A stretch of DNA of 26,029 bases from positions 1-26,029 of IMG/VR virus record IMGVR_UViG_3300037087_000069; one strand, 5' to 3'. Below are positions 8,040 through 26,029 of the stretch, one piece after another (the stretch's first letter is position 1; every line of letters starts with the position of its first letter). The position numbers were made by a program, and so were the translations under genes. The DNA comes from a virus. Under the pieces are notes generated by a model, which saw nothing but the letters and a program-made list of their open reading frames with translations, was not told the origin of the DNA and did no database searches.

Positions 8040-8639
8040 CTACCACGTTTTCCCGACAGTATCCGAGAATTCCTCGACCTTGTGAAACCATGCGTGATCT
8101 TCCCCGAGTTCGATCTTCTTTCCGAATATTTCATCGACAGCGCCTTTGACATCCCCATTCTTATTCGCATAATCGTGACCGCAGATTAACCCTCCTATTT
8201 TTACTTTCGGAGTCCAGGCGATAATATCGGATAGGCAACCTTCGTATGAGTGATCAGCATCGATGAAAACGATATCCAGGCTTCGATCTGCGAACTGTTC
8301 AACAGCTGAGAGGCTTGATCCTGAAATAATGTGCACTCTATCTCCGAACGGCTTTACCGCCTCACAAGCAGCTTCATATGCGGCATGAAAGTCCTGCTCC
8401 GTTTTAGCTGCAATTTCAGCACCACTCTTACCGTAACTCGATTCAGGAGTGGGAGGAGTCCAGGTATCTACGCCATACCATTCGAGTTGAGGAAGAACGC
8501 CGAGAAGATGGAATGCGTTGATGCCCTTCCATACACCCACCTCGACCATTTTGATTTTATCTAGTTTGTGGATACGCTGATATATTTCGTGCCACCGTTT
8601 ACGCTTTGCCGTTAAATGTACTTTATGTTTTGTTCTCAT
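8040..8639 (-). CDS. Class I SAM-dependent methyltransferase
   Basis: A 199-residue methyltransferase of the class I Rossmann type, closest by pattern to the Methyltransf_24 group. Motif I is VEVGVWKGINAF at about residues 32-43, with the acidic residue at the end of strand 2 in WYGVDTW (54-60). Residues 125-134 read FIDADHSYEG and 149-157 GGLICGHDY, two hallmarks of this group. Such enzymes often methylate sugars or small hydroxylated compounds. ATG at 8639 overlaps the glycosyltransferase stop by four bases and follows AAGGTGAG. Its company, a glycosyltransferase, a methyltransferase relative and a sugar-dehydrogenase-like gene, suggests that its substrate is a sugar or glycan. That substrate is inferred. 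Confidence 0.85.
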   Translation of the reverse strand: MRTKHKVHLTAKRKRWHEIYQRIHKLDKIKMVEVGVWKGINAFHLLGVLPQLEWYGVDTWTPPTPESSYGKSGAEIAAKTEQDFHAAYEAACEAVKPFGDRVHIISGSSLSAVEQFADRSLDIVFIDADHSYEGCLSDIIAWTPKVKIGGLICGHDYANKNGDVKGAVDEIFGKKIELGEDHAWFHKVEEFSDTVGKTW

Positions 8640-9460
8640 GCTCTCACCTTGCCAAAAATTATTTCTTGTTTCTTTCTCGCTTCGAAAATGTAATCCTGCC
8701 CTTTGTGTTCTTCCAGAGCATCCTCCGGGAATTGCTGAGCCCCGGCCTCAGCCGCGAGCTGTCGCCAAATCTGTACTGCCTTTCGTACTTTTGTATCGAG
8801 TAACGCTATCGGAGTAGGGAGAAAAACATTCTTTCTCGTCTGGCTTTTAATATGCAAAACCCTCGGACCTTCCCCGTGATCCGGGAATATCCATCGATCT
8901 CTACACCAGTTCCACTCATGACAATCGAACCGCTTTATATGTGCCTCATGGCAATCTTTATTCTCAAGAAGATAGCCGAGCGAAGCTTGATTCATACCAG
9001 CGTATTTTTCCCGGAAAACCGAATGAAGCTTTTCGTCGGTATACATTTTATTGTCTATTTCAAGCCACTTCTTCATAAATCCTCGGGCTGCGTCCGTATT
9101 GCGAGCGAATACAGTACCACCATTAAATGGGAGCCGCTCTCTCGCATCATTGAGATAGGTTATTCCGATATCGAAATCCGTATCATCGAATGCGCCGTCA
9201 AAACTGCGAAGAATTACCATATCGCAGTCGAGGAAAATGATATCATCATTCGCGGATTCGAGTACTTCAATCCATTTGTTAAGCTTCAAGTTGTTCGAAG
9301 CAAAGCACGTCTTCCGGTTGATTGTTCTCGGAGGATCATGGCGAATAAGGCGGAATTCTATATTCGGGCAGAACTTCTTTGCGGAATATTCGAGGACTTT
9401 GGCCATTTTTTCATACCGTGTATCACCGTCGTAGTTGAAAATGTCCGATACGATAATCAT
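8636..9460 (-). CDS. Glycosyltransferase, nucleotide-sugar-dependent (DxD type)
   Basis: The 274-residue product looks like a GT-A fold glycosyltransferase. It begins with a strand (MIIVSDIFNYDGD) and has a DCD metal/nucleotide-binding motif in IIFLDCDMVILRSFD at about residues 75-87. There is a downstream PFNGGTVFARNT segment typical of acceptor or sugar sites, and HIKSQTRK near residue 200, in the position where GT8-like enzymes have an H-x2-(G/S)-x2-K motif. Transfer of a sugar from a nucleotide-sugar donor is therefore likely. Donor and acceptor are unknown. ATG at 9460 overlaps the stop of the preceding small gene by four bases. The surrounding genes suggest a small glycan-modification group inside the virion structural operon. 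Confidence 0.8.
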   Translation of the reverse strand: MIIVSDIFNYDGDTRYEKMAKVLEYSAKKFCPNIEFRLIRHDPPRTINRKTCFASNNLKLNKWIEVLESANDDIIFLDCDMVILRSFDGAFDDTDFDIGITYLNDARERLPFNGGTVFARNTDAARGFMKKWLEIDNKMYTDEKLHSVFREKYAGMNQASLGYLLENKDCHEAHIKRFDCHEWNWCRDRWIFPDHGEGPRVLHIKSQTRKNVFLPTPIALLDTKVRKAVQIWRQLAAEAGAQQFPEDALEEHKGQDYIFEARKKQEIIFGKVRA

Positions 9461-9711
9461 TCTGCTTTGTATCCTTTCCCCAGTCTATCGCGTAACCGCT
9501 TCTCATGCTCGGGATTTGCAGACCACCAATCTTTAAAAATCTGTTTGTTATATTCGAGAAGCTTCAGACTCATACGCTTTGCCATCTTCTCGGCTTCGGA
9601 TAATTTTAGACGTATTCGTATATCGTGCTCCGAATCACCCTGATGAAGATCGTTGATCTCGCGCAATACTTCGCAGATTGTACGCTCTTGAGATGCATTT
9701 CTCATGCTCAT
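9457..9711 (-). CDS. Small charged protein of the glycan-modification group
   Basis: An 84-residue, highly charged and mainly helical protein that I do not recognise. It contains no Cys pairs, signal sequence or membrane segment. Visible features include CEVLREINDLHQGDSEHDI in the first half and NKQIFKDWWSANPEHEKRLR in the second, which suggests a soluble helical fold. ATG at 9711 directly follows the TAA of the upstream gene, with GGAG about nine bases upstream; a second ATG two codons later could also serve. Its stop overlaps the glycosyltransferase start. Sandwiched between two modification enzymes, it could be an accessory subunit, but nothing shows that. Confidence 0.6.
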   Translation of the reverse strand: MSMRNASQERTICEVLREINDLHQGDSEHDIRIRLKLSEAEKMAKRMSLKLLEYNKQIFKDWWSANPEHEKRLRDRLGKGYKAE

Positions 9712-10398
9712 TTAATAGTACTCCGCATGGTACTTCGGATCGTCCGGAACCCTGAGAATTGTACCTCCGAGATATCGCCACACTGAACACATGGACTGCA
9801 TTGGCCTTTCTACGAATTCGAATATCCCCGCATTCTTATTGAGCGCCATGCAATCTTTTTGATATCGTCTGCATGATTCCGGCCTTGTCTCATACCAGTA
9901 ATAATCGAGCATCATTACAATCGTTCGTCCTGGAATGAGTTTGTCTCCGAAGATGTCCCACATGTGATCCGTCATGGTCTTGTATGTGCAAATATCATCA
10001 ACAATAAGCGCGATTCTCCGATCATCCGTATAAAACTGTTCTCTGAATGATCCCTTATGAGGTATGGGCTGTTTCCGGAACATGGATAGATTCATCATCA
10101 TGACCGAAAGCAAATCTTGATCGAGTTCGAAATCGATATCGTGATAATCTTTCGCTCGCTTCTGGAACGTTTTGTCCGCTATCCATCGATCATACGAATG
10201 TATATCAACATCCTCACCGCTATTTTCGATTCCTGCGAGAAGAAAACCTATCGTCGAACCGAGCCATGATCCGATATCTACAATAGCCTCTCCGCTACGA
10301 GCAAACTGTGAATACTTGACTAGCTCCTGCCAGACCGCAAGACCCCCTATCCCGAGGGACGGAATCTTCTTAACCTGTTCTATTCTGTCGTTAAGCAT
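9712..10398 (-). CDS. SAM methyltransferase-fold protein
   Basis: A 228-residue protein with a class I methyltransferase layout. Residues 39-49 are IVDIGSWLGST, matching motif I (D-x-G-x-x-x-G). It is followed by VDIHSYDRW at 64-72, with the strand-2 acidic position, and LIVDDICTYKT at 131-141, where family members have 'FIDGDH-Y'. A helical stretch and IVMMLDYYWYE (160-170) follow, similar to 'GG-x-(I/L)-x3-DY'. The usual H of 'DGDH-Y' is replaced, so activity is not certain. TylF-like sugar O-methyltransferases and cephalosporin hydroxylases share this general layout. ATG at 10398 overlaps the dehydrogenase-like gene by eight bases and has AAGGA eight bases upstream. Confidence 0.7.
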   Translation of the reverse strand: MLNDRIEQVKKIPSLGIGGLAVWQELVKYSQFARSGEAIVDIGSWLGSTIGFLLAGIENSGEDVDIHSYDRWIADKTFQKRAKDYHDIDFELDQDLLSVMMMNLSMFRKQPIPHKGSFREQFYTDDRRIALIVDDICTYKTMTDHMWDIFGDKLIPGRTIVMMLDYYWYETRPESCRRYQKDCMALNKNAGIFEFVERPMQSMCSVWRYLGGTILRVPDDPKYHAEYY

Positions 10399-11149
10399 GT
10401 TTGATGTCCTTCTTGTGCATGTCGTTCACGATGTAAACCGAAGTCATGAATGGAGTATTGGTCCCGAGCTGTTTTGCGAACGCGTTAAAAATCGGGATAT
10501 CTTTGTCCAAACACTTCGATTGATAAAATGGATGCTCATCATATACGAATGTGTGAGAGCGCCCTACCCGCGGATCCGCGATGAACATTTCTCGGAGTTC
10601 GTTATAGTCTACCCCAATCCGAAGCGCTATCCTGTAAAACTCATTGCAGAATGTGACTTTCGTTGCAAGGAAGCAATTCTCCATGAGCTTACAAAGTTCA
10701 GCCGTTTCGAATGTTGTCTGGAATATTTTTAACTCACCGGTACTGATTTCCTTGAATGCTTCGGCTATCTTTCCGGTATCGCCCCTATCTCCTCCGAGAA
10801 TAATGAAGTCGTAATTGTATCCGTTCGCGTGTATCGTTTCTCCTGTGTATTCAGGCATAAAGACGACAGCTCGGTTATATGTAAGAGCGATTTCTGAGCA
10901 TGTCCCGGGAGGAACCGTAGAACGAACGCAATATATTCGAGCCTTCACCGAAAGAATAGCGTCAACCACGATTGATGTTTTGCATTCACCATTTTCCTCG
11001 CATGGAGTCGGAACGCAGATAAATGCTATGTCATAGATTTCGTTCAAATCGCATAGAATCCCTTGCGGCGGATCGTGGATGTCAGCTTCCAGGAAAAGTT
11101 TTTTCATGTTCTTGCCTACGATACCGTTGCCTACGATCAACAGTTTCAT
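10391..11149 (-). CDS. Short UDP-glucose/GDP-mannose dehydrogenase-like protein
   Basis: The 252-residue product resembles the first two thirds of nucleotide-sugar dehydrogenases. It has a Rossmann NAD site (LLIVGNGIVGKNM, residues 3-15), FICVPTPCEENGECKT (43-58), RSTVPPGTC (76-84) and MPEYTGE (98-104). The catalytic lysine block ELCKLMENCFLATKVTF (151-167) and a catalytic-cysteine block SKCLDKD (211-217) are present, matching 'G-x-C-L-P-K-D'. Normal enzymes exceed 400 residues and have a C-terminal UDP-binding domain, which is absent, so substrate binding must differ. I prefer ATG at 11149 to the TTG at 11152 because AAGGAGG then lies five bases upstream. A hairpin terminator lies just before the ribosome site. 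The product may supply a modified sugar to the following transferase; that is inferred. Confidence 0.8.
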   Translation of the reverse strand: MKLLIVGNGIVGKNMKKLFLEADIHDPPQGILCDLNEIYDIAFICVPTPCEENGECKTSIVVDAILSVKARIYCVRSTVPPGTCSEIALTYNRAVVFMPEYTGETIHANGYNYDFIILGGDRGDTGKIAEAFKEISTGELKIFQTTFETAELCKLMENCFLATKVTFCNEFYRIALRIGVDYNELREMFIADPRVGRSHTFVYDEHPFYQSKCLDKDIPIFNAFAKQLGTNTPFMTSVYIVNDMHKKDIKHA

Positions 11150-11318
11150 CAATCCCTCCTTTTTAAAAAAGCGGCATCTCTACCGCTTATGATTTCATAG
11201 CTGTCATGATCATTTTGTAATACATTCGGGATAATCGCTGCGCTGATAATGTTCTCACCGGCGTTGTGGTTATCCCGACAAATATTTCCATAAGTATTTT
11301 TTTGGGAAGAGGCGGAAT
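11150..11318 (-). other. Non-coding stretch with inverted repeat between two operon segments
   Basis: The 169 bases between the Lys-rich gene and the dehydrogenase-like gene contain no convincing gene. On the minus strand there is a perfect 9-base inverted repeat, TCGGGATAA at 11270-11278 and TTATCCCGA at 11226-11234, enclosing 35 bases. This is followed about 40 bases later by a compact hairpin with a T-run (separate entry). The combination could be a folded leader, a small RNA or a processing site. Confidence 0.5.
11165..11188 (-). terminator. Intrinsic terminator before the glycan-modification genes
   Basis: Read on the minus strand, AAGCGGTA-GAGA-TGCCGCTT forms an 8-pair stem (one G-T pair) capped by a GNRA-type GAGA loop, followed by six T. 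It lies 16-40 bases upstream of the dehydrogenase-like start. It would reduce read-through from the capsid genes into the accessory group, or act as an attenuator. Confidence 0.7.
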
Positions 11319-18121: not shown

Positions 18122-19434
18122 CTCTGCCTCCTCTTCGCCATTCCATCGCGGATAGACTTATCGAATAGTATATCATTTCCAGCATAACACAACAACAAAG
18201 CATCAGCCTTATCTGGAGATTTCCCACCATTGCGTTTTTTATAAACATCCTTCGGCTCTATTTTTTTCCTGCTATATTTGTCATATCCATATCTTCGACC
18301 TGATAATTGGGACATCAATTCCGGATCATCGGGAATATCAGCCTCATCCATAGGGAATTCGAACCACATCTCATCAGCCTTGGTTTCATATAAATCTTGA
18401 TTCGAAGCTCTTTCACCGAATCCTACCTCAATAACCTTTGCACCTTTCTTCCTCAATACGTCGATAACGCCAGGGTTATATCCTGAATCAATCTTTATCG
18501 CATACGAAGGATCCCTATCGGCCATATCCCAAACCGCGTCAGCGACTTCGTTTGTATCATATCCATGAACTTCTTTATGTCTCACCGTCTTCATGCCCTT
18601 GCGTCTATAAATATCTGTATTGTCTTTGCCGAATCTGGCAACATCCACACCCAATTCAGTCGCCCCTATCGCTTCTACATTCCGCGCCATGGCCCCGCGT
18701 ATACTTGCTCTATCCCAAACGCAATTGTCAGCCTGATTTTGAGGCTCCCCGCCCCATGTATGCTCTGCCAGGGCAGGATCTCGCTTATAGTCTTCTTCCA
18801 TTTCCCTTTGAAGTTCGTCAGTCCACCATGGATTGTCTATCCTTCCTGCTTCGCATTTGATAACTACGCTATCATCGCGCTGATGTTTCACGAATCTCTC
18901 ATAGACAGGATCAGCTTCTTTGACCCTGTTAAAATTGACCCATAACTCGCTGCCCGGCTTCCTGAGAGTAGGAATAAGAACATTCCACGATTCATCAGTA
19001 AGCCTTGCTGCTTCTTCACACCAAAAAACATCGAAATCCTCATACCCTTTTATAGCCTCGGATGCGCGAAGATCATGCATTCCCCTGAAGGTGAAATACG
19101 ATCCGCACGGAGAATAGATATGCTCTTTCTGGATTATCCATCCCGGATAGCGTAGGCGTTCTATGGTGTTTTTGATTATCTTATGGACTGATTCTTCGAT
19201 TGAAAGCTGTACTTCTCGAGTACAAAGTATCTTAATTTTCTCCCTGTGCGCACGCTGCACAAGCAAGGATGCAAATCCCCATGTTTTAGCGCCTGCACCA
19301 CGGCCCCCGTAAACAACTTTGATCCTGCGCGGCTCTCGAAGGATTTCGAGCTTAGGGCTTACCCTTTCAAGTTCTTCCTGTTCAAGCAAATAGATATCAC
19401 GCTCGAGTTCTTCCCGGCTACGCTTTGCGGCCAT
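18118..19434 (-). CDS. terL: Terminase large subunit
   Basis: A 438-residue DNA packaging motor with both domains visible. The ATPase has an unusual Walker A-like segment GGRGAGAKT (residues 43-51), Walker B DVFWCEEA (135-142) and a coupling-motif-like NFNR (167-170). The conserved neighbourhood ILCTREVQLSIEESVHKII places it in the PBSX-type Terminase_3 group. The nuclease domain has the RuvC-like acidic set: LGVDVARFGKD (Asp264), IKIDSGYN (Asp316) and PDKADALLL (Asp411). ATG at 19434 follows AAGGA and overlaps the IbrB-like gene by 17 bases. It cuts concatemers and pumps DNA through the portal encoded next. The Walker A has an extra Ala before the Lys compared with the common GGRGSGKS form. 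Confidence 0.95.
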   Translation of the reverse strand: MAAKRSREELERDIYLLEQEELERVSPKLEILREPRRIKVVYGGRGAGAKTWGFASLLVQRAHREKIKILCTREVQLSIEESVHKIIKNTIERLRYPGWIIQKEHIYSPCGSYFTFRGMHDLRASEAIKGYEDFDVFWCEEAARLTDESWNVLIPTLRKPGSELWVNFNRVKEADPVYERFVKHQRDDSVVIKCEAGRIDNPWWTDELQREMEEDYKRDPALAEHTWGGEPQNQADNCVWDRASIRGAMARNVEAIGATELGVDVARFGKDNTDIYRRKGMKTVRHKEVHGYDTNEVADAVWDMADRDPSYAIKIDSGYNPGVIDVLRKKGAKVIEVGFGERASNQDLYETKADEMWFEFPMDEADIPDDPELMSQLSGRRYGYDKYSRKKIEPKDVYKKRNGGKSPDKADALLLCYAGNDILFDKSIRDGMAKRRQR

Positions 19435-20068
19435 ATTTTTTCCTTAGAAGGATCTGATTTCTCGATTCCCACGACTTTGAATACTCAGTATTCTCGAATA
19501 ATTTCGAAAAGCCTGTAATATGTTTTAAGCGAAGGAGCTCTTCAGGTTCCATTCCGAGCTGATTACATATCTCTTTATCATCCCATCCGCCGTCAAGCAT
19601 TTCGAATACTATATTCGCCATCCCTTTTACTGAATGTTTCCCACGGGCCCGGTTATGCCTGATAGTCGAAGCCATCCTGTCATTGATATCTTTATCAATT
19701 ATAACAATTGGCAGCATCCCTTTATTCCTATCGTAAATATCCTTATTGTTCTTACATACAAAATATCGGTGAAAGCCGTCAACGATTATATACTTGTCAA
19801 TCTCCTTATCGTAGATTGTTACGATTGGCTGAGTGTATCCGTCGTTAAGAATCGAAACATAAAGAAGCTTCATCTCGATCTTGGCTACTGAATTAGGATT
19901 ATAATCATTAGCTTGTATTTTATCGACAGGCACCCATAATACACGGTCAATAGGTTGGCTTTTAAGTTCAGATAATTCTTTGTGTATCCAATCACGTATG
20001 GTGTTGAGAAACTCGATCTTATCATCCTTCTCGTTATATTCCTTTTTTAAATCAACTAGATAATTCAT
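19418..20068 (-). CDS. ibrB: IbrB-like ParB/sulfiredoxin-fold protein
   Basis: A 216-residue ParB-type protein that I recognise as IbrB-like. It has VPVDKIQANDYNPNSVA (47-62), ILNDGYTQPIVT (73-84), DKYIIVDGFHRYFV (91-104), the DGFHR nucleotide-site motif, TIRHNRARGKH (135-145), and a helical end with NQLGMEPEELLRLKHITGF. E. coli IbrB works with IbrA to control immunoglobulin-binding protein genes. Related ParB-fold proteins have CTP-hydrolysing, nuclease or DNA-binding roles. An IbrA-like gene lies two genes upstream. I use ATG at 20068, one base past the methyltransferase stop, with GGAA upstream. ATGs at 20077 or 20104 are also possible. Function in phage is unknown; DNA modification or regulation is plausible. 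Confidence 0.85.
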   Translation of the reverse strand: MNYLVDLKKEYNEKDDKIEFLNTIRDWIHKELSELKSQPIDRVLWVPVDKIQANDYNPNSVAKIEMKLLYVSILNDGYTQPIVTIYDKEIDKYIIVDGFHRYFVCKNNKDIYDRNKGMLPIVIIDKDINDRMASTIRHNRARGKHSVKGMANIVFEMLDGGWDDKEICNQLGMEPEELLRLKHITGFSKLFENTEYSKSWESRNQILLRKKYGRKA

Positions 20069-20069
20069 A

Positions 20070-20690
20070 TCATACATTCCGTATGAAGTCGACCAAAATT
20101 GCAAGTCTTTTTTTATTCAATTCAGTGCCTACAAATCTTTTATTATTTAGATATGCATATTTACCGACCAAGCCTCTACCCATACATAAATCTCCAATAC
20201 AAGTATAAGAATGATTCTTACAAATCCATTCTATTATTTTCTCTTCATCTAAATTTTGCAATTCAGGATAATATAAACTGTTATTGCAAGATTGAATTAT
20301 CCAGCATTTATTTTTAACATTATTATAATATTTGGATTCATAGATAACTACATTTGTAAATCTTTTTTCGCACTCATTTATAAAAATATTTTTATTGCTC
20401 TTAAATACCTCTAAAAATAAATATTTAGGTTTTATTTCATCTATTCTTTTAAAAAGAGATTTATAAAATATATCAAATGAATTATAATTTTGTTGATCTG
20501 CTTTTGTATAAAAAGTAGTAAGATTACCTTTGCTGCATGGAGGATCACAAAAAATAGTATCCGCCTCTTTCATGAATTCAGGTAATTCTAATATCAAATC
20601 ACATACTTTAAGGCTTGATTTATTAGGCAGTTCAATAACTCCATTCATATTATATTTTTTATATATTCCCCCATATTCCCATTTATTCAT
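20070..20690 (-). CDS. Putative DNA amino-methyltransferase, very AT-rich
   Basis: A 206-residue protein with DNA N6-adenine/N4-cytosine methyltransferase features. Residues 43-52 contain ADTIFCDPPC, a variant of catalytic motif IV (usually DPPY/NPPY). Residues 165-185 contain IGDLCMGRGLVG, a motif I-like SAM site, followed by FVGTELNKKRL. The order IV then I is that of beta-class enzymes. Having C in place of Y in DPPC is unusual, so activity is not certain. The start is ATG at 20690, with AAGGAG seven bases upstream. The gene has extreme base composition (12 G/C in 60 at 20281-20340, against 26 in 60 at 21001-21060 in its neighbour), a strong sign of recent transfer. It sits between the IbrA- and IbrB-like genes. 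Confidence 0.75.
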   Translation of the reverse strand: MNKWEYGGIYKKYNMNGVIELPNKSSLKVCDLILELPEFMKEADTIFCDPPCSKGNLTTFYTKADQQNYNSFDIFYKSLFKRIDEIKPKYLFLEVFKSNKNIFINECEKRFTNVVIYESKYYNNVKNKCWIIQSCNNSLYYPELQNLDEEKIIEWICKNHSYTCIGDLCMGRGLVGKYAYLNNKRFVGTELNKKRLAILVDFIRNV

Positions 20691-20691
20691 A

Positions 20692-21822
20692 TTAAATCTC
20701 CTTTTTTCCAAAATGCCCTCTACCTGCTTTTTTGACTATATCATAATTAACCGGATCGCGTTCTCGATTGCCTAATGTTGTAAACTCAAAATCATTTAAA
20801 ATAAGAGTATTAACGCAAGCCCTGTTCATTAATTCATAACAGCTCAACCCGTCGTATTTCTTATCAACTTGGTCAAACTTTTTCTTGTATATTACTTTAT
20901 CAGTATTTATAGAAATCAATTTATCAAGTAAGTAATCTCGGTACTCTTTCCAATCTTTAAACATATAAGGGAGATCGTAACTATAAAAATCTTTAGCCCC
21001 AAAATGAGCAGCTGTATTGATTCCGTCTAATCTCGCGGATATTTTTTCCCATGTAGCCGGTTCTATTTCTTGCAATAAAAATAGAGAATGCACGGATGTT
21101 TCATGGTGTAGATTGGATACCCTCATTTTCTGTGCTGAAATACCGTATCGATAATATTCGTCGTACACTTTATTGTAATCGCATTTATGATCGAATATAT
21201 ATTTCCATATATCGGAATAACTCCAATCGTAAAGCGGATAAAAAGTATAATGCTCGAGTCTTTTATTCAGCGTCTTGCCGTATGTAACGTGCTTATACTT
21301 CGCGTAATGAGTAAGCGCCAAAAATCTGGTAGGGCTTTCCTCTGCTCGTACACCCGCGATATATGCCGTCTTTGTCGAATTGAATAAGACCTTGATTATA
21401 GCGGCGAATAGATCGTGGAATCTGTCAGTTCCGAATACATTCTCAGTGATCGCCAATTCTGATTTCGGCCTCATCCAGTTTTTCTCATCTTCCGGATTCC
21501 AGCACATAAGCCATTTATTAGAATGTGAAGTAGCATTGAGTATCTTTATTGGCATTTGGAACCATAGAGGATTGATTCCCTTTTTATGCATTACTCGATC
21601 TACATAGTCTATAGTACTTTGCCATTCGGCTTCCTGGTCTATGAAGATCACATTTAATGGTAACCTTTTTCTCCTCTTTGCTACCTCAAGGCATAGATTC
21701 AAAATCACCGTCGAATCCTTGCCGCCCGAAAAGGATACTATGATATTGGGAAATTCGTCGAAGAGATATTCAATCCGTTCTATAGCCTTATCATAGACAT
21801 TGGCCGATCCGTAGATCTTCAT
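20692..21822 (-). CDS. ibrA: IbrA-like PP-loop (PAPS reductase-family) protein
   Basis: A 376-residue PP-loop ATPase-type protein. The motif FSGGKDSTV is at residues 31-39, with VYDKAIERIEYLFDEFPNI before it and LPLNVIFIDQEAEWQSTI after it. Later segments (WMRPKSELAITENVFG, IAGVRAEESPTRFLAL, PLYDWSYSDIWKYIF) match the DUF3440/IbrA type of the phosphoadenosine-phosphosulfate reductase superfamily. These proteins activate substrates with ATP. DndC, used in DNA phosphorothioation, is a distant relative. There is a short AGGG site before ATG 21822, and the start overlaps the upstream methyltransferase stop (ATGA). Enzyme function in phage is not known. Association with methyltransferases and ParB-like genes suggests a nucleic acid substrate or regulatory role. 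Confidence 0.88.
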   Translation of the reverse strand: MKIYGSANVYDKAIERIEYLFDEFPNIIVSFSGGKDSTVILNLCLEVAKRRKRLPLNVIFIDQEAEWQSTIDYVDRVMHKKGINPLWFQMPIKILNATSHSNKWLMCWNPEDEKNWMRPKSELAITENVFGTDRFHDLFAAIIKVLFNSTKTAYIAGVRAEESPTRFLALTHYAKYKHVTYGKTLNKRLEHYTFYPLYDWSYSDIWKYIFDHKCDYNKVYDEYYRYGISAQKMRVSNLHHETSVHSLFLLQEIEPATWEKISARLDGINTAAHFGAKDFYSYDLPYMFKDWKEYRDYLLDKLISINTDKVIYKKKFDQVDKKYDGLSCYELMNRACVNTLILNDFEFTTLGNRERDPVNYDIVKKAGRGHFGKKEI

Positions 21823-22610
21823 TTTTGCCCTGAGATTATGATGAAATTATGATAGTCAATTCTATCGCCCGGCAGATATTCATGATTGCAGATTGAATGC
21901 TTGAGTTGTATACAGGCGAGATCATATGTCTTTGGCTTATAATCCGGCTGATAGAACATGATAAAGTATCGGCCCCCGTCCTTAACGTAATCGAGTATAT
22001 CTATGACTGAGCGCTCCTCTATATAGCTCGCAGCCCCGAATAAAGATATTACAAGATCAAACTTCGCGTTAAAGTAAAATGATTCGAAGCATGAATGCTG
22101 GACCTCGGAATGAGGATGTTTCGCCTTTAACAATGCGAGCATATTCAATGATGAATCTATGCCGAGGTAATTGCTCGTTTTGCAGTTATCGAGAAATAGA
22201 CCGGTACCGCACCCTATATCAAGCACCGATTCACCCTCTTTATGTCCAATCATGGACATTATTTCAGCATTCTCTTTCACGCTATTTTCATCGGTGAAGA
22301 AAGAATCGTATTTCTCGGCTATAGCATCATACGGACTTGATTTCTTCAGCTTTGCCCTATTTATCAGAATGGTTGTTTCAATCGGATCCCCCATGGTCCA
22401 ATAGCAATAATCATTCACATCCAAATATCGATAGGTACGCTTCCCAAAAGATCTTGAATACCCTTTGGCCCGTATGTAGAGTACTACGTCGATAAAATCT
22501 TGATCTGATTTCCAGTTCTTCCGGAGAGAATAATCATGCGGCATTTGCGGCATTGTCTTTGCGAATATCCATACCTGCTCTATGAGCTGTTGCGCTACTT
22601 TGTTGAACAT
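21819..22610 (-). CDS. Two-domain SAM-dependent methyltransferase
   Basis: The 263-residue product has two parts. Residues 1-90 form a separate domain with QVWIFAKTMPQMPHDYSLR, RTYRYLDVNDYCYWTMGDPIE and TTILINRAK. I recall similar stretches, with a Trp-start, 'TMP-x2-PH-Y', 'Y-x-Y-L-x(4)-Y-x-YW' and 'T-x2-NR', in phage and bacterial proteins of unknown role. Residues 120-263 are a class I methyltransferase: motif I VLDIGCGTGLFLDN (129-142), YLGIDSSLNM (147-156) and FDLVISLFGAASY. ATG at 22610 overlaps the stop of the ParB-like gene (TAATG) and has no strong ribosome site, so coupling is likely. The substrate is unknown. DNA, RNA or a small molecule are possible, and the genetic company favours nucleic acid. 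Confidence 0.8.
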   Translation of the reverse strand: MFNKVAQQLIEQVWIFAKTMPQMPHDYSLRKNWKSDQDFIDVVLYIRAKGYSRSFGKRTYRYLDVNDYCYWTMGDPIETTILINRAKLKKSSPYDAIAEKYDSFFTDENSVKENAEIMSMIGHKEGESVLDIGCGTGLFLDNCKTSNYLGIDSSLNMLALLKAKHPHSEVQHSCFESFYFNAKFDLVISLFGAASYIEERSVIDILDYVKDGGRYFIMFYQPDYKPKTYDLACIQLKHSICNHEYLPGDRIDYHNFIIISGQK

Positions 22611-23206
22611 TATGCACTCACTTCGAATTGATGAGCGCATTCGGGACAGACAACCGCTATTTTGCGCGTACTCTTAACTATTTTTGTAGATAGCTTTTTC
22701 TTGCCCTTGTCGATATCGTCCTGACTGACATCCTTATTCGATTGCTCTGGATTCTCATTCGGATCGAATAACACCCTCTTTACATCTTCGTCTACCAGCC
22801 TGAGTTGATCGTTTATTTCGTCATCGATTCCGTCAAGCCATTTTGAGAGCTCGTCTTCATTCCATTCTCCATACTGCGAAGATATCGAAAGAAGAATCTC
22901 TTTGGCTTTCTCCTCTGATTCGGCGTCGATATATACAACGGGAATCTTAGGAATCAGATACCCGTCTTCCTGAAGAGATAAAAGCGCGGCCCGGCGCTGA
23001 GTACCATCAAGAATCTTATTCTTTTTCCCGGTACTCCATATAAAGATAGGAGCGCAGAATCCGGCCTGAAGAATCCTACTTTTTAATTTCTTGAGATTGG
23101 TTTTTGTTAGTTTCTTGAGATTCCCCTGAAGCACTGATAACTGGCTTATCGGCAACTCCGCCGCAGCCTTGCAGGTTATCCTTATCGTTTTGGTTCTCTT
23201 TGCCAT
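22610..23206 (-). CDS. ParB-like nuclease-fold protein with C-terminal CxxC
   Basis: A 198-residue ParB-domain protein. Visible are ELPISQLSVLQGN near the start, the ILQAGFCAPIFIW segment and KILDGTQRRAAL, the ParB 'DG-x-(Q/H)RR' motif. These are followed by LSISSQYGEWNEDELSKWL, common in phage ParB-like proteins associated with methyltransferases. The C-terminal 40 residues contain a single CPEC pair (AVVCPECAHQFEVSA), an incomplete zinc-ribbon. ATG at 23206 has a strong AAGGAG site eight bases upstream. It lies inside the preceding gene, giving a 131-base out-of-frame overlap. It is the first gene of the island between the terminase genes, ahead of the methyltransferase and the IbrA-like protein. 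Confidence 0.85.
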   Translation of the reverse strand: MAKRTKTIRITCKAAAELPISQLSVLQGNLKKLTKTNLKKLKSRILQAGFCAPIFIWSTGKKNKILDGTQRRAALLSLQEDGYLIPKIPVVYIDAESEEKAKEILLSISSQYGEWNEDELSKWLDGIDDEINDQLRLVDEDVKRVLFDPNENPEQSNKDVSQDDIDKGKKKLSTKIVKSTRKIAVVCPECAHQFEVSA

Positions 23207-25532: not shown

Positions 25533-25539
25533 CCTCCTT
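25533..25539 (-). promoter_or_regulatory. Strong ribosome binding site ahead of an ACG codon
   Basis: AAGGAGG in minus-strand reading lies at 25533-25539, immediately after the methyltransferase stop at 25542-25544. Five bases later is ACG (25525-25527) in frame with the acidic-tail protein. No ATG, GTG or TTG lies at a suitable distance in this frame, so this site decides the unusual start. Confidence 0.75.
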
Positions 25540-26029
25540 ATTTATTTTTGAATCCTTTCATACAAGATTTGAAATGCCGACGCCATCTGGAAAGGGACTT
25601 GTGCGTTACCGAGTGCTTCAACTCGCTCCACCCGATTGGGAATTGCATCAACCATTCCACCGGCTCGGGCAAGACTTTCCATCCCAAGACGGATTGGTAT
25701 TTCTTGATATTCTCGGTCGCTCGCTTTCCCATTCGTTTTTTCGTAGCTCCACCCTCCGCCCATCCGTGCTTCCCCATGCTGACTCTTATCCGCGGCCAGG
25801 CAAAACCACCTTTCCCCTTCGGTGAGGCCGGAGGGATCAGGAAACACGTCTGCGATAGCATTATAACCGATCTCGGCCAAATCCCCGAATACTCGAGCAG
25901 CTCCCCTTGAAAGGATCGCTGCGACGTTTTCCACGAATGCGAATTGAGGTCGTACTTCGCGAATGATTCGTAGCATCTCCTTCCAGAGTCCGGAACGCTC
26001 CCCAGTAATCCCTGCGCCTTTTCCAGCAA
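25538..26029 (-). CDS. Overlapping +1-frame ORF resembling phage methyltransferase-associated proteins
   Basis: This second frame, +1 relative to the methyltransferase, is open for at least 163 residues and continues past the window edge. The TTG at 26029 need not be a start. It is not random: ESFAKYDLNSHSWKTSQRSF, then LLEYSGIWPRSVIML, LIPPASPKGKGGFAWPRI, and PEPVEWLMQFPIGWSEL, match in order a pattern I know from phage proteins, '(S)-x-W-(R/K)TSQ', 'SG-x-WPRSG', 'LPP-x(n)-WP', and 'EWLMG(F/W)P-x-GWT'. It covers the same bases as the enzyme's ENV and motif X regions. It may be a real overprinted gene or a product of frameshifting. I give it as a candidate, with a strong need for homology testing. 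Confidence 0.55.
   Translation of the reverse strand: MLEKAQGLLGSVPDSGRRCYESFAKYDLNSHSWKTSQRSFQGELLEYSGIWPRSVIMLSQTCFLIPPASPKGKGGFAWPRIRVSMGKHGWAEGGATKKRMGKRATENIKKYQSVLGWKVLPEPVEWLMQFPIGWSELKHSVTHKSLSRWRRHFKSCMKGFKNK
25542..26029 (-). CDS. dcm: Cytosine-5 DNA methyltransferase, C-terminal part
   Basis: The frame (complete codons from 26027) is the C-terminal part of a cytosine-5 DNA methyltransferase; its 5' portion lies beyond the window edge. It reads AGKGAGITGERSGLWKEM, then IIREVRPQFAFVENVAAI with catalytic motif VI ENV. The FGDLAEIGYNA motif follows, and the end has RVEALGNAQVPFQMASAFQI, motif X. A shorter frame start at ATG 25976 is internal to the enzyme and is not the true start. 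Between motif VI and motif X the usual PH-R-R segment (motif VIII) is not clear, where the text reads GLTEGERWFCLAADKSQ. The enzyme probably protects phage DNA from restriction. A second reading frame overlaps it completely (separate entry). Stop TAA at 25542-25544. Confidence 0.9.
   Translation of the reverse strand, partial: AGKGAGITGERSGLWKEMLRIIREVRPQFAFVENVAAILSRGAARVFGDLAEIGYNAIADVFPDPSGLTEGERWFCLAADKSQHGEARMGGGWSYEKTNGKASDREYQEIPIRLGMESLARAGGMVDAIPNRVERVEALGNAQVPFQMASAFQILYERIQK

Follow-up and report, generated by a model that had tools for sequence, protein, structure and literature searches.

Two overlapping reading frames that share the DNA at the end of a phage contig very probably encode the two polypeptides of a C5-cytosine DNA methyltransferase of the M.EcoHK31I type. 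The window analyzed here corresponds to an entire IMG/VR virus record (26,029 bases), and the gene runs off its end, leaving the 5′ ends of both frames outside view. Frame A encodes the C-terminal portion of a C5-cytosine methyltransferase, and frame B, shifted +1, resembles a phage protein family of its own. In this family of loci both frames code and both are under selection, methyltransferase motifs are partitioned between them, the start codon of B is conserved, and A and B occur naturally fused. The first-pass annotation had proposed that the overlap was a recurrent, conserved arrangement rather than chance. This was borne out, as in hundreds of phages and prophages the methyltransferase DNA also encodes a B homologue, with no B stops and with purifying selection on frame B.

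Both frames lie on the minus strand and run uninterrupted from 26029, frame A to its stop at 25542 and frame B to 25538, 4 bases beyond the stop of A (Table 1). Codons of frame B begin at the second codon position of A. The open frames and the peptides first read from them were present where they had been placed; RVERVEALGN (A) and EWLMQFPIGWSELKHS (B), for example, derive from the same bases at about 25610-25665. That B reads as a known type of phage protein was supported by a database search, which returned a match to PHROG 1008 (4.5e-7) and homologues at the same frame offset. A profile of relatives built without the window matched window B at 3.3e-27, and the B_IX profile matched window B, not window A. 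Frame A is a fragment: TIGR00675, the model of canonical single-chain C5 methyltransferases, aligned only over positions 76-136, with 25.8 bits where the cut-off is 100.65. Motifs VI and X are present in window A, motifs I-V would lie past the record end, and motif VIII is degenerate. Relatives of A likewise covered TIGR00675 positions about 4-163 only, and in the window motifs I-X do not stand together in one frame.

Table 1. Features of the two overlapping frames at the end of the window.
Feature	Coordinates	Strand	Evidence
Frame A: C-terminal part of C5-cytosine DNA methyltransferase	25542..26029	minus	PF00145 9.3e-7, PHROG 363 4.2e-24
Frame A stop codon	25542-25544	minus	
Frame B: PHROG 1008-like partner protein, +1 relative to A, 163 codons visible	25538..26029	minus	PHROG 1008 4.5e-7
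Motif VI of A (FVENV, 25923-25937) over SWKTS of B (25922-25936)	25923..25937	minus	sequence, ORF translations, alignment
B_mid, first conserved block of B (SGRRCYESFAKYDLNSHSWKTSQ...WPRS), over motifs VI-VIII of A	25820..25987	minus	profile match B 15-70, independent profile agrees
Place of motif VIII in A; usual GAPHxRxR absent here	25794..25856	minus	alignment and profile alignment
Motif-IX-like block of B (KVLPEPVEWLMQFPIGWSELKH)	25613..25678	minus	profile match B 118-139, independent profile agrees
Motif X region of A (GMVDAIPNRVERVEALGNAQVP...), over the motif-IX block of B	25545..25661	minus	profile match A 123-161, independent profile agrees

Taken by itself, the window fragment is only mildly unusual. 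Synonymous reshuffling of A produced a mean of 2.8 stops in B, with zero in 1.5% of shuffles, and the case rests on related loci. Missing residues raise the possibility that the window copy is inactive or contains sequence errors close to the end of the contig. The GAPHxRxR of motif VIII is absent from A and a near-invariant glycine of B_mid is absent from B, both over the same bases, and the gene runs off the contig. Against decay or misassembly, neither frame is interrupted before its normal end, and motifs VI and X as well as the motif-IX block of B are intact. We treat a decaying or misassembled copy of a functional family as possible but doubtful; intact copies are common.

The arrangement recurred widely. 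A tblastn search of phage genomes with B returned 14 records, and in those examined a methyltransferase occupies the same position at an identical frame offset. From an IMG/VR scan with frame A, 80 loci of more than 600 were taken, and nearly all carried frame B across the whole gene. In those that do, B begins MSWLFSQALVEEYS, four bases after the A start, and ends GGxLNPTWVEWLMGWPLGWTDLKPL. Species genomes scanned with B alone yielded 80 loci, and A was present in an overlapping frame in 80/80. Host lineages of the loci included Pseudomonadota, Verrucomicrobiota, Spirochaetota, Nitrospirota, and candidate phyla. Searching IMG/VR with exact peptide patterns from window B alone gave no relatives, because this B is too divergent for such patterns. 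Public annotation gives one frame only at some loci (L381, L380, L004): A in an E. coli prophage and an Acinetobacter plasmid, and B alone in the virus Rctr197k. In the E. coli PCP07014 prophage (L382), stops at one place (664-671) end both frames of the nested gene, which RefSeq lists as a pseudogene; A and B were therefore lost together.

Distribution of the conserved motifs defined the gene layouts. The nested layout of the window was found at 248/337 related loci, where frame A carries motifs I-VIII and X without IX, and frame B carries the motif-IX-like LNPxWVEWLMGxPxGWT. Both IX and X were in B at 27/337 loci (phiBT1, Euratis, and DarthPhader types). At 46/337 loci both were in A, and nearly all of these still had a long frame with B_mid plus LPTPTA in +1. 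Single-chain layouts accounted for very few of the 337. Where a block like motif IX of B is carried in A (L211), it lies within the C-terminal coverage of PF00145 (to position 318). The block GGHGPTLxDEVxxLLP was seen in frame A at some loci and in frame B at others (L209 and L211 versus L218, L220, and others), and from this placement it looks as if repeat modules of the recognition region had been frame-switched. Another locus (L296, 1456-2130) looks like a deletion fusion: A jumps from motif VI to B_mid without a change of frame, and IX and X occupy a third one.

Natural fusions, a classical sign of two proteins working together, joined the two frames. One locus (L201) has motifs I-VIII, B_mid (TYDPDTHTWRTPQ...KWGSMRDGEL), a variable region or target-recognition domain (TRD), IX, and X all in one frame. 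In an alignment of 29 rows with this fusion, the split A proteins end where the split B proteins begin. A second locus (L326) runs from motifs I-VIII into B_mid without leaving the frame. AlphaFold modeled the L201 fusion with a pTM of 0.72, and Foldseek gave M.HhaI as its best solved match (1.6e-12) across the whole chain. The rmsd was large at about 22 A; this poor superposition means that only the fold class is supported, with the placement of the small domain unproven.

Could B be a separate product, such as an inhibitor, an anti-restriction protein, or a regulator, that merely shares methyltransferase DNA? A Pfam search with B alone returned no recognized domain, B had no sequence match to solved target-recognition domains, and the AlphaFold model of B alone was poor (pLDDT 57.8, pTM 0.26). 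However, motif IX is absent from A and present in B, the fusions unite A and B in the motif order of canonical C5 methyltransferases, other architectures place IX and X now in A and now in B, and the genome scan never found B without A. C5 methyltransferases have their target-recognition domain between motifs VIII and X, and selection across this stretch fell on B. The nonsynonymous/synonymous ratio there was 1.31 for A (no detectable constraint) and 0.87 and 0.45 for B (constrained), while both frames were constrained outside it. Thus this stretch of A behaves as a linker and that of B as a selected protein. We consider an independent product improbable. Of the products suggested by the first-pass annotation, a partner fits best and an inhibitor found no support.

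The third suggestion was an alternative C-terminus made by frameshifting. Programmed frameshifting would join the N-terminus of A to the C-terminus of B in one chain, and the A and B segments do give canonical motif order, as in the natural fusions. Set against this, the B start codon is universally conserved beside the A start in the main group, four nucleotides after it, and B_mid overlaps motifs VI-VIII of A, such that a single pass cannot hold both. Because of this strictly conserved start and the overlap of the first block, we judge frameshifting very unlikely.

The least probable reading, an unselected shadow that chance and composition keep open over the conserved methyltransferase motifs, was refuted by the constraint tests that follow. 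In its favor, B_mid arises from motifs VI-VIII read in +1 (SWKTS is FVENV one base later) and EWLMxxPxGW from the motif X region (EWLMGWPIGWTDL from the GRVVDGVASRVDRLKALGN region). As the B blocks are +1 readings of A motifs, part of the similarity among B proteins must mirror conservation of A. Such a shadow was expected to show frequent stops and no selection. Instead, 0 stops were found in B across 88 genes, compared to 4.7 per gene expected from synonymous reshuffling of A (other frame, 16.6).

Codon choice in A was frozen where B depends on it. The second residue of A, Asn, is encoded by AAT, which creates the ATG of B, in 132/132 distinct genes, compared to AAT for 39% of Asn codons elsewhere in the same genes. 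This AAT was kept even in genes where the start codon of A itself sits elsewhere. The invariant glycine of the GY just before motif VIII, where B also needs glycine, was GGG in 70/71 diverse genes, and the glycine of A over the MGWP of B was GGG in 63/67, compared to 17% of glycine codons in neighboring genes; sequence relatedness limits the independence of the AAT and GGG counts. Mean entropy at four-fold sites was 1.29 bits against a background of 1.96. Both the GGG and four-fold-site tests used genes below 78% DNA identity.

Substitution patterns agreed. Across 23 non-overlapping pairs, the rate of A-synonymous, B-nonsynonymous changes relative to A-synonymous, B-synonymous changes was 0.31, compared to 0.78 for a sham +1 frame in flanking genes. 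Ratios for nonsense changes in B were 0.26-0.33 against 1.0-1.1 for the same sham frame. At 80-90% identity, differences by A codon position were distributed 0.35/0.22/0.43, compared to 0.22/0.20/0.58 in flanking genes. Finally, the B region of the L201 fusion, in frame and free of overlap, retains its residues.

Ordinary methyltransferases lacked these features. Loci with IX and X in A had been considered as a shadow-only negative control and were dropped, since a long +1 ORF and the frozen GGG glycine also occur in them; ordinary C5 methyltransferases of the same genomes therefore replaced them. In 14 canonical full-length enzymes, +1 stops were as expected (17.3 versus 17.1) and the longest +1 frames spanned 30-133 codons. 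The B_mid profile gave no convincing match to these 14. The overlap is not due to chance, and frame B is under purifying selection.

This family most resembles a known bacterial system. M.EcoHK31I and its isoschizomer M.EaeI are two-polypeptide C5 methyltransferases for YGGCCR. In 1995 Lee, Kam and Shaw reportedly described the smaller M.EcoHK31I gene as nested, in a different frame, within the larger. Nesting of the small-chain gene in another frame was also found here, with B over A (+1) in the window and its relatives. The beta chain of M.EcoHK31I has 176 residues and is shorter than B of our main group, which starts at the A start and spans all of A; our genes also differ in belonging to phages and prophages. 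The larger M.EcoHK31I polypeptide carries motifs I-VIII and X, and the smaller only IX (PMC3404938), the same partition as in the window family when compared by description. The target-recognition region apparently lies on B here, whereas the predicted TRD of M.EcoHK31I was placed on its larger chain, not the smaller (PMC3404938). A prophage orphan methyltransferase predicted to share M.EaeI specificity (PMC4722110) offers a lead only.

Other comparisons were less close. M.AquI is split into a first chain with motifs I-VIII and a second with IX and X (PMC3404938), a layout shared by the phiBT1, Euratis, and DarthPhader relatives. The window differs in having motif X on the first chain (A) and a long overlap. 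PHROG 1008 ("DNA methyltransferase", 329 aa) is matched by B and its relatives, and its name is silent on any overlap with a catalytic gene. In Paenibacillus phage Lily, depositors labeled gp63 as "g62 internal gene", a DNA methyltransferase. The Lily B is more distant, its record holds no selection test or mechanism, and the searched passages of PMC6070908 likewise give neither for gp62/gp63. The HNH endonuclease hidden in another frame of a ShiLan phage DNA methylase gene (PMC11855218) is a homing insertion rather than a second methyltransferase subunit, and is unrelated. Thus, the two-polypeptide architecture is already known and B is not an unknown protein, given PHROG 1008 and the Lily internal gene. 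In the open-access literature searched on overlapping or nested phage cytosine methyltransferase genes, no paper describes the family as dual-coded, and its spread and frame-swapping variants appear undescribed there.

We propose a model for the two-subunit enzyme in which both chains would be translated from one mRNA with one ribosome-binding region. The two start codons lie four bases apart in relatives (ATGAATGAG), while the start of the window gene is outside view. Frame A would yield the catalytic subunit, which carries motifs I-VIII for AdoMet binding and catalysis as well as motif X. Frame B would be produced as its partner and would bring motif IX and the region that recognizes DNA. 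Binding of the A and B chains would then assemble a single active enzyme that methylates cytosine within a specific sequence. Its purpose would most likely be to protect phage DNA from host restriction.

The layouts also suggest a history. The second subunit of this large phage family could have been overprinted in the +1 frame of motifs VI-VIII and taken over target recognition, after which IX and X moved between frames. Four layouts would result: nested, split, B without IX, and single-chain fusions that undo the overlap. We consider this scenario about as likely as not.

Two further regions of the window, both on the minus strand, carry genes of possible modification pathways. Positions 19418-23206 encode a ParB-N-like protein, a weak N6/N4 DNA methylase match, a PAPS-reductase/DUF3440 protein, an AdoMet methyltransferase, and a weak GmrSD_N match. 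This cluster looks like a second DNA-modification or defense-related module. Among structural genes at 8040-11152 are a methyltransferase, a nucleotide-sugar transferase, and a UDP-glucose/GDP-mannose dehydrogenase-like gene, a possible sugar-modification cassette.

Most annotations that we saw give one of the two proteins, and an apparent orphan methyltransferase may thus be half an enzyme. Cloned with a recoded frame B, such a half would appear to lack activity. The arrangement also bears on the prediction of phage DNA modification and of evasion of host restriction. To our knowledge, cellular and phage genomes rarely contain genes of 230-330 codons that are dual-coding over almost their full length and selected in both frames. 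With hundreds of homologues and controls, the origin and relaxation of overlapping genes become testable. If the proposed history is true, the four-layout family would be a natural series for the formation and dissolution of long dual-coding genes.
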